NCBI RefSeq assembly: GCF_030823375.1
Contig: NZ_JAUSXB010000001.1
Location: 4,278,001-4,342,000, forward strand
DNA: 64,000 nucleotides
Origin: Pseudarthrobacter siccitolerans
GTDB taxonomy: Bacteria; Actinomycetota; Actinomycetes; Actinomycetales; Micrococcaceae
Direction of reading: 5' to 3'
This document shows positions 30,330 to 40,105 of this stretch, piece after piece. The first letter of the stretch is position 1. Every line of letters starts with the position of its first letter. The notes beneath the pieces are model-generated. The model did not search any database and was not told the origin of the DNA. It was given only the letters and a program-made list of their open reading frames with translations. Both the position numbers and the translations under genes were made by a program.

Positions 30330-31855
30330 GCGGCACCATGATCAAGGAATTTCGGCTGCCGGACCTGGGTGAAGGACTTACTGAATCGGAAATCCTCAGC
30401 TGGAAGGTGGGGGTGGGGGATACCGTCAGCCTGAACCAGGTGATTGCCGAGGTGGAAACCGCCAAAGCAGTGGTGGAACTGCCGTCCCCTTTTGCCGGGG
30501 TCATCAAGGAACTGCATGAGCAGCCCGGCACTGTTGTGGAGGTGGGCAAGCCGATCGTCTCGTTCGAAGTAGCCGACGACGTCGGGGCCTCCTCTGGCGG
30601 GACCGCCGCCCCTGCTTCGTCCCCGGCTGGCCAGGAGCAGGAACCGGAGCAGGAACCGGAGCGGGAGCAGGATGCGAAGCCGGCAGCAGCCAAAAGGGAA
30701 CCGAACCTGGTGGGGTACGGCGCCGTCGTCGAAAGTACGGGCCGGCCGGTACGACGCCCGCGCAACCTACCCCCGGTGGTTGAGCATGTCGCAGCGCGGC
30801 CTGTCGAAACCAAAGCCTCGGTGGTTGAGCCTGTCGAAACCCAGCCTGTCGAATCCAAAGCCCCGGTGGTTGAGCCTGTCGGGACCAGGCCTGTCGAGAC
30901 CAAAGCCCCGGTGGTTGAGCCTGTCGAAACCAGGCCCACTGATATCACGCCCGGAGTAAACCGGCCCCGGTCCACTCCGCCGGTTCGGAAGTTCGCCAGG
31001 GACCTCGGTGTCGACCTCGCCGTGGTGCCGGGGACCGGCCCGCAAGGGCTGATCACGCGCGAGGACGTACAGCACTTGGTGGAGGGGCAACAAGCGGACG
31101 CTGGCTCTCCAGAACCGGAGACAGTTGTCCCGGCCGGCGTCCAGTCCCACGGTGCCCGGGAAACCCGGACCCCTATCAGGGGAGTACGGAAGTTCACGGC
31201 AGCCGCCATGGTGGGGAGCGCTTTCACGGCGCCGCATGTCACGGAGTTCCTGACGGTGGACGCCACTCCGGCCATGGACCTGCTGGTCAAGCTCAAGGGC
31301 AGCCGCGAGTTCACTGGCCGCAAGCTGACGCCGCTCACACTCGCGGCGAAGGCCGTGCTGATCGCGCTGCGGCGCAACACCGCCCTCAATGCCCGCTGGG
31401 ATGAGGCGAACCAGGAGATCGTGACCTTCAACTACGTGAACCTGGGCATTGCAGCCGCAACACCGCGGGGACTGACCGTTCCCAACATCAAGGATGCCGA
31501 CGCGCTGTCCCTCCTTCAGCTCGCGGACGCGTTGACCGAACTGACGGAAACCGCGCGTGCCGGCAAGACCACACCAGCCGACCTGTCCGGCGGGACCATC
31601 TCCATCACCAATATTGGCGTCTTCGGTATCGATGCGGGCACTCCCATCCTCAATCCGGGGGAGGCCGCCATTCTTGCCGTCGGGGCAGTGCGGAATACGC
31701 CATGGGAGTACCAGGGTGAAGTGGCCCTTCGCCAGGTCCTCACACTGAGCCTGTCCTTTGACCACCGCCTGGTGGACGGGGAACAAGGCTCGCGCTTCCT
31801 GGCGGATGTGGGCGCCATCCTCGCGGACCCCGGAATGGTCCTGGCTATGGTCTAG
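30326..31855 (+). CDS. bkdC: branched-chain 2-oxoacid dehydrogenase E2 (dihydrolipoyl acyltransferase)
   Basis: The E2 core carries the acyl group on lipoate to CoA. The single lipoyl domain has the lipoylated lysine at about K47 in EVETAKAVVELPSPF. The linker of about residues 95-210 contains four 15-residue repeats (see repeat entry). The E3-binding domain is about residues 212-252 (PVRKFARDLGVDLAVVPGTG), and the C-terminal catalytic domain ends with SFDHRLVDGEQGSRFLADVG (catalytic His about 480). The ATG at 30326 overlaps bkdB; ATG 30338 is an alternative. No lpd (E3) gene lies nearby, so E3 must be supplied from elsewhere. Confidence 0.93.
   Translation: MSGTMIKEFRLPDLGEGLTESEILSWKVGVGDTVSLNQVIAEVETAKAVVELPSPFAGVIKELHEQPGTVVEVGKPIVSFEVADDVGASSGGTAAPASSPAGQEQEPEQEPEREQDAKPAAAKREPNLVGYGAVVESTGRPVRRPRNLPPVVEHVAARPVETKASVVEPVETQPVESKAPVVEPVGTRPVETKAPVVEPVETRPTDITPGVNRPRSTPPVRKFARDLGVDLAVVPGTGPQGLITREDVQHLVEGQQADAGSPEPETVVPAGVQSHGARETRTPIRGVRKFTAAAMVGSAFTAPHVTEFLTVDATPAMDLLVKLKGSREFTGRKLTPLTLAAKAVLIALRRNTALNARWDEANQEIVTFNYVNLGIAAATPRGLTVPNIKDADALSLLQLADALTELTETARAGKTTPADLSGGTISITNIGVFGIDAGTPILNPGEAAILAVGAVRNTPWEYQGEVALRQVLTLSLSFDHRLVDGEQGSRFLADVGAILADPGMVLAMV
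30775..30954. repeat. in-frame 45-bp tandem repeat in bkdC linker
   Basis: Four units start at 30775, 30820, 30865 and 30910, exactly 45 bases apart. They encode VVEHVAARPVETKAS, VVEPVETQPVESKAP, VVEPVGTRPVETKAP and VVEPVETRPTDITPG. Each opens with the DNA core GGTTGAGCCTGTCGAAACC or a near copy, with half-copies (GCCTGTCGAAACC) in between. The reverse complement of the same core is repeated in the MaoC gene at 39521. Confidence 0.9.
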
Positions 31856-32048
31856 GGCAGCTCCCGTGATGCAGCCGCGGCCCTGGGCCGCATACGCGTT
31901 GCTGCCCCGCACCGCTTATGCGGTCCAGAGCCGCCCTAACGCCTCGGATGCCAGGAACCGGCAGGGGAGCAACAAGTGGGTTTCAAAACGCGTGGTGCCA
32001 CCAACGAGTGGGTTCCGAAACGGCGCGGGCTTCCAGAACGCCGGGGTT

Positions 32049-32684
32049 CTAGTCCTGTGGGGCCTCGACCAGCAGAGCGGCCAGGGCCATGCTCTCCAGC
32101 AGCGGCCGGGCGGAGCGGGCCGCCATTTTCCGGCCGTGGCTGCGCACAGAGTGGGGCGTGGAGTTGATCAGCCCGAACGTTGCGTGCGCCCGCATCCGGA
32201 GCTCGGCGATGCCAGTGTCCGGGTGCAGCTTGGCGAGGACGCCCACCCACACCTCGACGTAATCCAGTTGGAGCGCCCGGACTGCCGACTGGTCCTGCTC
32301 CGAGAGGTTGCTGAAATCCCTGTCCTGGACGCGGATGACGTCCGGCTTGCCCAGGGCGAAGTCCACCTGGAACTCCACCAGGCGACGCAGGGCCGAGGCG
32401 GGGTCTGCGGTGCGGGCCACCACCTCGCGGCCGCCGTCGAGCAACTCCTGGCTGACCGTGACCAGGAGGTCGGCGAGGACCGCCTGCTTGCCGGGAAAGT
32501 GGCGGTACACCGCTGGCCCGCTGACCCCGGCAGCCGAGCCCAGGTCCTCGAGCGAAACACGGTTGAATCCATTGACTGCAAACAGCGCCGCGGCAGCCGA
32601 AAGCAATGCCTGCCTGCGGCTCTCTTTCGCTTGCCCGCGCTGGGTGGGGAAGCCGGGCTGCGTGGTGGCGTCGGTGCTGCGCAC
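32049..32684 (-). CDS. TetR-family regulator of the leucine/acyl-CoA operon
   Basis: 211 residues. The N-terminal HTH ([40 protein letters not shown]) is canonical and the C-terminal ligand domain has [20 protein letters not shown]. The GTG start follows AGGAGG closely. It is divergent from the carboxylase operon with 145 bases between and is the counterpart in position to the TetR gene (Rv2506) of the M. tuberculosis leucine locus. A repressor released by an acyl-CoA is the likely mode. Confidence 0.87.
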
Positions 32685-32741
32685 ATTTCCTCCTGGGATC
32701 CCGCAGATCTTAGCAAGAGCAGCTATGTGTTGGACTTCACA

Positions 32742-38745: not shown

Positions 38746-38747
38746 CC

Positions 38748-39512
38748 ATGGACCCGAACAGCCCCTATGCCCCGCGGCCCGAAGGTGTCCGCCCCGAGTA
38801 CCGACGGGCAGCCGAGCAGCATGAAATGGCCGCGGACGGGAGCGGCACCAGAGGCTGGACCAGGAACGAACTGGCCGCCCGGGTGGCGCGCGAGCTCCAT
38901 AACGGCCAGTACGTCAACCTTGGCATCGGCATGCCCACCCTGATCCCCAATTACATTCCCGCCGGCGTGGAAGTTGTGCTGCACTCCGAAAACGGGATTC
39001 TCGGCGTCGGCCCTTATCCCGCGGAGGATGCCGTTGACCCGGACCTGATCAACGCGGGCAAGGAAACTGTCACGGTCAACAAGGGGGCGGCATTCTTCGA
39101 TTCGGCGGCTTCCTTCGGCATGATCCGGGGTGGCCATGTGGACGTCGCCGTCCTGGGCGCGATGGAGGTGGCCGAGAACGGTGACCTCGCCAACTGGATG
39201 ATTCCCGGCAAGATGGTCAAAGGTATGGGCGGCGCCATGGACCTGGTTTTTGGCGCCAAAAAGGTCATCGTGATGATGGAACACGTTGACCGGAACGGGA
39301 AGCCCAAGATCGTCAAGCAATGCTCCCTGCCCTTGACCGGCAAGGGCTGCGTGGACCGGATCATCACGGACCTGGCAGTCATCGACGTCGTCGCAGACCG
39401 CTCAGGTTCCCGGCTGGTACTGCGGGAACTGGCGCCCAACGTGTCTGTGGAGGATGTAGCGGCTGCCACCGGCGCCGAGCTCTTCGAGGAAGACCGGGAA
39501 CTGACGGTATGA
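38748..39512 (+). CDS. scoB: 3-oxoacid CoA-transferase subunit B
   Basis: The beta subunit, 254 residues. The catalytic glutamate that forms the enzyme-CoA thioester is in [15 protein letters not shown] (about residue 81). Other markers are [60 protein letters not shown] and [17 protein letters not shown] 38748 is 2 bases after the scoA stop; the longer frame from 38418 is out-of-frame scoA sequence. It ends with an ATGA overlap with the MaoC gene. In the M. tuberculosis locus the equivalent pair is Rv2503c-Rv2504c. Confidence 0.93.
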
Positions 39513-40105
39513 GCAGTGAGAACGGGGTTTCGACCGGCTCAACCACCGGCAACGGGGTTTCGACGGGCTCAACCACCGGCTCTGACACGGGGGAGCGGCG
39601 CGTCATTGAGCAGCGCGGGCTGTACTTCGATGAGCTGGAGCAGGGGGTGCTGTACGCCCACCGGCCCGGCCGGACGGTCACCGAGGCGGACAACGTCCTG
39701 TTCACCACCCTCACCATGAACACCCAGGCCCTGCATCTCGATGCGGCCTGGAGCGCCGGGCAGCCGTTCGGCCAGCGGCTGGTCAACTCGATGTTCACCC
39801 TGTCCACAGTGGTGGGCCAGTCCGTGTCGCAGCTGACGCAGGGAACCATCATCGCCCAGCTGGGCCTGACTGACGTTTCCTTCCCGCATCCGCTGTACCA
39901 CGGCGACACTCTCTACACCGAGACCGTGATCAGCGGGAAGCGGCTCTCCTCGTCCCGGCCCGGCCAGGGCATCGTCACAATGGAGCACACCGGCCGCAAC
40001 CAGGACGGCACCGTGGTGGCACTGGCCAAACGCAGCTGCCTGATGTGGACCCGTGAAGCGCACCGGCAGCAGGCCGGCGGCGAAAGGGGCACAATACCGG
40101 TATGA
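39509..40105 (+). CDS. MaoC-family acyl-CoA hydratase
   Basis: A hot-dog-fold enoyl-CoA hydratase of 198 residues. The core reads [60 protein letters not shown] and [20 protein letters not shown]. The M. tuberculosis relative (Rv2499c) sits in the same gene order and is reported to hydrate itaconyl-CoA; 3-methylglutaconyl-CoA is another plausible substrate. The first 27 residues are not part of the fold: they are two copies of [10 protein letters not shown] encoded by a 30-bp DNA repeat. A GTG at 39554 or later could give a shorter protein, but the ATG couples well to scoB. Confidence 0.87.
39521..39580. repeat. in-frame 30-bp tandem repeat at start of MaoC gene
   Basis: Two units (39521-39550, 39551-39580) encode [10 protein letters not shown] twice. 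The DNA contains GGTTTCGACCGGCTCAACC and GGTTTCGACGGGCTCAACC, each one mismatch from the reverse complement of the bkdC repeat core. The same element therefore lies in opposite orientation in a different frame. Confidence 0.88.

Follow-up and report, generated by a model that had tools for sequence, protein, structure and literature searches.

How does one short DNA sequence become part of two different proteins, in opposite orientations? This question is raised by a window of 64,000 nucleotides, the whole stretch of DNA that was analysed (contig 1, positions 4278001–4342000, of the 4.5-Mb genome of Pseudarthrobacter siccitolerans), in which copies of a 19-bp core are arranged in tandem inside bkdC (30326..31855, + strand) and inside a gene for a MaoC-like dehydratase (39509..40105, + strand). 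Very probably both arrays belong to a family of 24-bp repeats resembling repetitive extragenic palindromes (REPs), whose coding copies are filtered by reading frame and afterwards grow in steps of whole units.

According to its Pfam domains (lipoyl at residues 7–79, E3-binding at 215–249, catalytic at 278–505) the bkdC product of 509 amino acids is the E2 of a branched-chain 2-oxoacid dehydrogenase. Direct reading and Tandem Repeats Finder identified four in-frame 45-bp units (30775..30954, + strand) at about residues 150–210, which is the linker joining the lipoyl and the E3-binding domain. The units start at 30775, 30820, 30865 and 30910 with the exact period and without indels, as the original prediction had stated, and Tandem Repeats Finder reported 3.7 copies of period 45 at 30771–30936 with 86% matches and 0 indels. 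On the + strand the core is exact in unit 2 (30823..30841) and unit 4 (30913..30931), both read as VEPVET, has two mismatches in unit 3 (30868..30886, read as VEPVGT) and is degenerate with four mismatches in unit 1 (30778..30796). An AlphaFold2 model of the protein (34 sequences, mean predicted local distance difference test score (pLDDT) 72.8) showed a pLDDT below 50 at residues 128–159, 161–169 and 171–211, which is nearly the whole array, and the linker beyond the array mostly scored below 50 likewise. It had been proposed that the array adds 60 residues to the linker. The array indeed codes for 60, but the linker of 137 residues is only about 40 longer than the median in 36 relatives (96.5 residues, range 77–134); these 36 relatives were also used for the association described below, L061 being left out as its linker edge was undetected. 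In the MaoC-like protein (198 residues, PF01575 at residues 50–162), the start codon of which overlaps the stop of the preceding gene, the same two methods found two in-frame 30-bp units with the element reversed (39521..39580, − strand). They begin directly behind four codons (MSSE), just where the reverse-complement units had been predicted, differ from each other at one base, are read as VSTGSTT, and each contains the reverse complement of the core with one mismatch (39526..39544 and 39556..39574, − strand). Both arrays are in frame, so the reading frame survives as claimed. With up to three mismatches the window holds five core matches, whereas 100 dinucleotide shuffles averaged 0.02 and never gave more than 1, and an Rfam search of the window at gathering thresholds revealed three tRNAs and no match at the repeats.

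The core is spread over the whole genome, with 69 copies (33 forward and 36 reverse, up to two mismatches) and none for a reversed-pattern control. Aligned on the core, these copies show conservation between positions −5 and +18 with sharp edges, and therefore the unit is 24 bp long, CCGGTGGTTGAGCCTGTCGAAACC. It starts with a CCGST tag, behind which lies an imperfect dyad of 19 nt, GRTY-GAGCYTGTCGA-RAYC. Many copies are singletons, others form direct tandems. Allowing one mismatch, 77 of the 150 genomes of a genus sample (including our strain) contain at least one copy (control 0), with copy numbers from 0 to 134 per genome. At the same threshold the core was found in 13 of 396 genomes of an order sample, namely our strain, three congeners and nine further genomes; eight of these nine have 1–2 copies, and one from another family (G685) has 43. 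A phylum sample contained it in 7 of 396 genomes, including one from another order (G436) with 8 copies. The exact 19-mer occurs in both G685 and G436, which suggests either transfer or an ancient family. Two further observations concern the distribution of the copies. In G000, 1.05 Mb (C1:335486–1388672) are free of the core at up to two mismatches, with 47 clusters elsewhere, and a gap as large arose in 1 of 5000 random placements. The congener G129 carries long regular arrays (C1:1336164–1336818, 1546345–1546722 and 1554521–1555345; L229, L234 and L240), in which core dimers with inverted GATC-type partners stand at 63–66 bp and direct copies at 27–34 bp.

One of the six reading frames of the core contains a stop (GGT TGA) and five are open. 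In three genomes, namely our strain, Pseudarthrobacter chlorophenolicus Mor30.16 (L048) and Arthrobacter ipis IA7 (L041), 45 of the 48 stop-free coding copies are read as VEPVET (32) or VSTGST (13), the remaining three being GFDRLN-like (two) and FRQAQP-like (one). At the level of genes, one of these two frames is used in 31 of the 33 that carry in-frame copies, and five more genes terminate at the TGA of the element. With five equally likely open frames such a bias would arise with a probability of about 5e-15 (copies) or 9e-11 (genes), the latter being the safer value as tandem copies are not independent. Neighbouring coding copies on the same strand are spaced by a multiple of three in 12 of 13 cases, compared to 6 of 12 for non-coding copies, and the sole exception among the coding ones involves a terminal copy in the stop frame. 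The proteins decorated in this way are unrelated: all 20 scanned from our strain have a Pfam match, and they include a second E2, acetyl-CoA synthetase, an Lhr helicase, PAPS reductase, an M20 peptidase, a MukB-like ATPase, a GatA-type amidase and serine hydroxymethyltransferase. Coding copies are often located at tails, in loops and in inter-domain linkers. In the 33 genes the first-listed copy lies within the last 35 residues in 13 cases, within the first 45 in seven and internally in 13. The idea that the repeat is tolerated only where the protein is disordered goes too far: many coding copies are close to a protein end (20 of the 33 genes), in E2 linkers or in a loop, but 13 genes have an internal one, and one copy interrupts the MukB-like protein in its middle. 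Compared with the solved structure 2p20, the acetyl-CoA synthetase has six unmatched residues (579–584) inside the element stretch, immediately preceding the conserved LRNHVAKEIGP; its structure model was poor (mean pLDDT 40.4) and was not used. The same loop contains a second repeat, similar to GCAAGCTCGGCCAGGGAACCCTGCGGGCGTGGGCCC, in other species (L139, L142 and L159), and a GCAAGCTCGGCCAGGGAACCCTGCGGGCGTGGGCCC-like repeat with two to four mismatches is found in the second E2 region (L004 and L254). As this repeat is present at both places, it may be that two families with no relation to each other occupy the same tolerated positions.

Comparison with relatives revealed homologues that differ by whole units at conserved flanks. 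Units were counted in 13 MaoC homologues (from the best 120 of 972 found) and in nine bkdC homologues (from the best 120 of 6957 found). The nine closest MaoC homologues listed, which are 91–97% identical, have two (one homologue), three (seven) or four units (one), corresponding to 198, 208 and 218 amino acids, and four lower-ranked ones have no intact unit. The nine bkdC homologues (81–95% identical) have 4, 4, 2, 2, 3, 2, 2, 4 and 5 units by pattern count, and in the pair P0002 and P0003 nearly identical flanks enclose four and two 15-residue units, respectively. The step size is 10 residues in MaoC and 10 or 15 in bkdC. Duplication or slippage of units is well supported. One and the same repeat at constant copy number across distant genera, which would have refuted the original prediction, was not seen in the material examined, and close homologues vary. 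GGCTGAGCC variants are common to three bkdC genes (L037, L041 and L046) at the same place, and a decayed MaoC match is present in the repeat-poor L036 (15 of 18 positions), with 12 of 18 in L033 and L035 and 7 to 11 in other repeat-poor genomes. This suggests that the insertions into bkdC and MaoC are old and inherited within a clade, and that the local tandem expansion came later. As the insertions look old and inherited, the two genes are better examples of expansion than of fresh insertion. One could go further and imagine a dyad family moved by an enzyme other than the REP-associated tyrosine transposases (RAYTs) and common to distant Actinomycetota, which recurrently donates flexible linkers. 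Two of its frames, one per strand, would code for a linker-like peptide, and insertion together with slippage would tune linker length, for example that of the swinging arm of E2. We consider this conceivable but doubtful.

In order to place the copies relative to genes we used a home-made codon score trained on the window, which calls about 92% of the sequence as coding both in the window and in the loci of 37 relatives. The original prediction had described the core as abundant between genes in Arthrobacter-like genomes, and the genome-wide count agrees: 41 of 69 copies are intergenic and 28 are inside genes (27 once a 36-codon open reading frame at 2477355 is dropped, which is also outside the frame counts given above). 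In the two congeners together 54 of 81 copies are intergenic and 27 intragenic. The 94 intergenic copies of the three genomes, leaving out of the orientation counts one further copy that has no right-hand gene, are distributed over convergent (40), co-directional (52) and divergent gaps (2), compared to a length-based baseline of 0.198, 0.44 and 0.362, respectively, and the shortage in divergent gaps has a P of about 7e-16. In our strain 40 of the 41 intergenic copies face the 3' end of a gene at a median distance of 36.5 bp, 31 of the 40 within 60 bp. The dyad itself was analysed in 173 distinct instances from 208 of 251 loci, located by the inner 11 bases alone, although many of these loci had been chosen because the core was present. 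Fully complementary 4-nt arms were found in 133 of the 173, compared to a mean of 68 and a maximum of 83 in 2000 random re-pairings. Four of the 29 arm types are fully complementary (GGTT/AACC, GATC/GATC, GATT/AATC and GGTC/GACC), and these are all combinations of two covarying pairs, from which we conclude that the dyad is kept. Both the position next to 3' ends and the covarying arms would also be expected from a chromosomal binding or termination site, used by a nucleoid protein or in 3'-end processing, that is selected at gene ends and spills over into coding sequence. Yet 73 of the 150 genus genomes have no copy at up to one mismatch, the counts range from 0 to 134, and single units form no stable hairpin, which makes such a site an unlikely origin of the family.

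Whether the DNA or the peptide is the conserved entity can be judged from the codons. The usual spelling of VEPVET in repeat-rich genomes is GTT GAG CCT GTC GAA ACC. In 22 window genes the frequencies of these codons multiply to about 3.7e-4 per hexapeptide, with GTT and CCT in VEPVET and ACA and TCA in VSTGST being rare there. Repeat-poor genomes have VEPAET-like hexapeptides, often with other codons. We scored the E2 linkers by how well they match the element in frame, with a threshold of 16 of 18 positions for the best match, in the 37 relatives examined for the core, out of 80 loci of which the other 43 belong to Streptomyces and other genomes. For bkdC, 12 of 13 relatives with at least five genome copies reach this score and none of the 23 with fewer do (P about 1e-8). 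With the cut raised to ten copies, the numbers are 11 of 12 and 1 of 24. For the second E2 the score is reached by 7 of 8 compared to 0 of 21 at the ten-copy cut (P about 5e-6) and by 7 of 12 compared to 0 of 17 at the five-copy cut (P about 5e-4). Element-free bkdC orthologues exist as well, as 23 of the 36 relatives match the element at 14 of 18 positions at most. These data bear on the idea that the VEPVET or VSTGST peptide itself is useful in the linker and its likeness to the DNA repeat a by-product. Hexapeptides like VEPAET, VEPTET and AEPVES, spelled with different codons, occur in the E2 linkers of repeat-poor genomes, which fits this idea: such a linker composition is tolerated or favoured in any case. 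But 41 of 69 copies lie outside called genes, the exact codons of the element are used although several are rare, the opposite strand yields an unrelated peptide in other proteins, and close homologues differ in unit number, and we thus regard a selected linker as very unlikely. Pure local slippage, with each array growing at its own site out of a short sequence that had arisen by chance, fits the 45-bp and 30-bp tandem units and their stepwise length differences, but is refuted as a whole explanation because dozens of unrelated loci share the 24-bp consensus in both orientations and often not in tandem, and copies occur in another family (43 in G685) and another order (8 in G436), so that it is highly improbable.

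The preferred explanation, a REP-like family whose coding copies are filtered by frame, comprises several steps. Repeats of 24 bp would be spread through Arthrobacter-type genomes by some enzyme acting on the dyad, and lie more often between genes and beside their 3' ends. Intragenic copies are almost confined to two of the five open frames, VEPVET and VSTGST, presumably as neutral and tolerated additions. In-frame copies gain or lose length by multiples of three through duplication or slippage, and coding copies would degenerate in genomes where the family has become scarce. The family with its edges, the biases in placement and frame, the change in unit number and the covarying arms are shown by the data above; dispersal by an enzyme, decay and neutrality are inferred. 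Several points weigh against this explanation. Copies are internal in 13 of 33 genes, and the one in the MukB-like ATPase is in mid-protein. The gene calls are home-made, and for some copies near the N-terminus the outcome hinges on which start codon is chosen. Element-rich genomes are phylogenetically clumped, with five parsimony changes for the bkdC label in a tree built from three genes for 38 taxa (six for the MaoC label, scoring L049, L051, L064 and L070, which among the 37 relatives have no MaoC in the flank, as without), and for this reason the Fisher P values given above overstate independence. A single unit, as RNA or DNA, folds no better than shuffled sequences, and its RNA minimum adopts another register. 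As single units fold so poorly, the dyad with its covarying arms could serve as a protein site of two-fold symmetry instead of a hairpin; an inverted pair at the 3' end of glyA forms a perfect 44-nt palindrome which folds stably (z about −8). Neither a clean empty site nor a target duplication was found in the MukB-like and acetyl-CoA synthetase genes, compared by searches that covered 81 genomes and gave 30 loci each (8 of the 30 MukB-like loci, low-identity paralogues, were omitted). Both genes change in length at the element: the MukB-like gene is +12 bp, and not +24, relative to 20 of its 21 comparators (20 of the 21 are element-free), and the acetyl-CoA synthetase loop is of variable length without a clean 24-bp insertion. 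PF01797, the RAYT-type domain, had no match in our genome and 25 congeners, 15 of them repeat-rich.

A RAYT as mobiliser is rejected by its absence from these 26 genomes; the same search gave matches in 5 of 14 control genomes. Proteins of the DUF222-HNH type, with 15 DUF222 matches in our genome and a gene beside or at 3 of 48 own loci (L010, L015 and L126) and one congener locus (L271), have next to no probability of being the mobiliser, as counts in 15 repeat-rich congeners (3–21) overlap those of 10 copy-free ones (6–16) and show no relation to copy number, and DUF222 had no match in G685, which carries 43 copies. As no enzyme was found and no clean empty site, mobility is something we infer. 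Of the proposed "mobile or slipping element" the slipping half is well supported, and both checks put forward in the original prediction turned out in its favour, so that its interpretation is supported overall. The window contains other tandem arrays as well. Those at 12176–12348 and 58380–58543, with 32-bp and 49-bp units, are outside the core family, and 15-bp arrays at 51019–51136 and 46546–46623 overlap predicted genes and are possibly more in-frame repeats.

The 24-bp family seems to be undescribed, although the general phenomenon is already known from in-frame REPs and the Rickettsia palindromic elements (RPE). A literature search with 14- to 17-base core strings and the peptides gave no relevant paper among the texts it covered, with one 14-base string occurring in a fish-pathogen paper, and the matches listed for REPs in Actinobacteria contain no description of the family. 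For Actinomycetota no report of this kind is among the literature matches listed; the survey table of RepRanger includes an Arthrobacter species (PMC12306157). The family offers a counted example of repetitive DNA becoming protein, in which frame, placement and copy-number change can be measured per genome. It is also a warning for annotation, as stretches such as VEPVET, VSTGST and GFDRLN can be DNA repeats and not conserved motifs.

Among the closest known systems are those described in PMC3733652, which for the GTAG and CGTC families and for Rickettsia reports intragenic copies, repeats that supply stop codons, a position mainly in convergent or unidirectional gaps, and clusters that code for 43–82 residues. 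With such REP-decorated reading frames our family shares short dyad repeats in many copies, mostly in convergent or co-directional gaps, some of which supply stops and some of which are in frame, with clusters that code for tens of residues (PMC3733652). It also lies within the copy-number range of REPs (tens to hundreds per genome) and shares their extragenic placement at 3' ends and avoidance of divergent gaps, though 28 of 69 and 27 of 81 copies are intragenic. In contrast to the GTAG and CGTC families neither terminal tag fits, as the 24-bp element begins with CCGST and ends with RAYC, none of the 26 genomes searched has a RAYT match, and it is found in Actinomycetota, whereas the words "Actinobacteria" and "Arthrobacter" are absent from that main text (PMC3733652). 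RPE are similar in being palindromic DNA in frame in unrelated proteins (PMC3733652, main text). They belong to another phylum and probably differ in sequence, and our family is set apart by its 24-bp unit and its tandem growth in unit steps; RPE are not known to have a transposase. REPINs with RAYTs are also inverted pairs, comparable to the 44-nt palindrome at glyA and the 63–66-bp dimers of G129, but in the 24-bp family no RAYT gene was found and many copies are singletons or direct tandems. Coding minisatellites (variable number tandem repeats) show the same in-frame length variation in unit steps but arise from local sequence only, whereas the unit described here is dispersed genome-wide. 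It is a new family of the in-frame palindromic or REP kind, separate from the REPs that depend on a RAYT.

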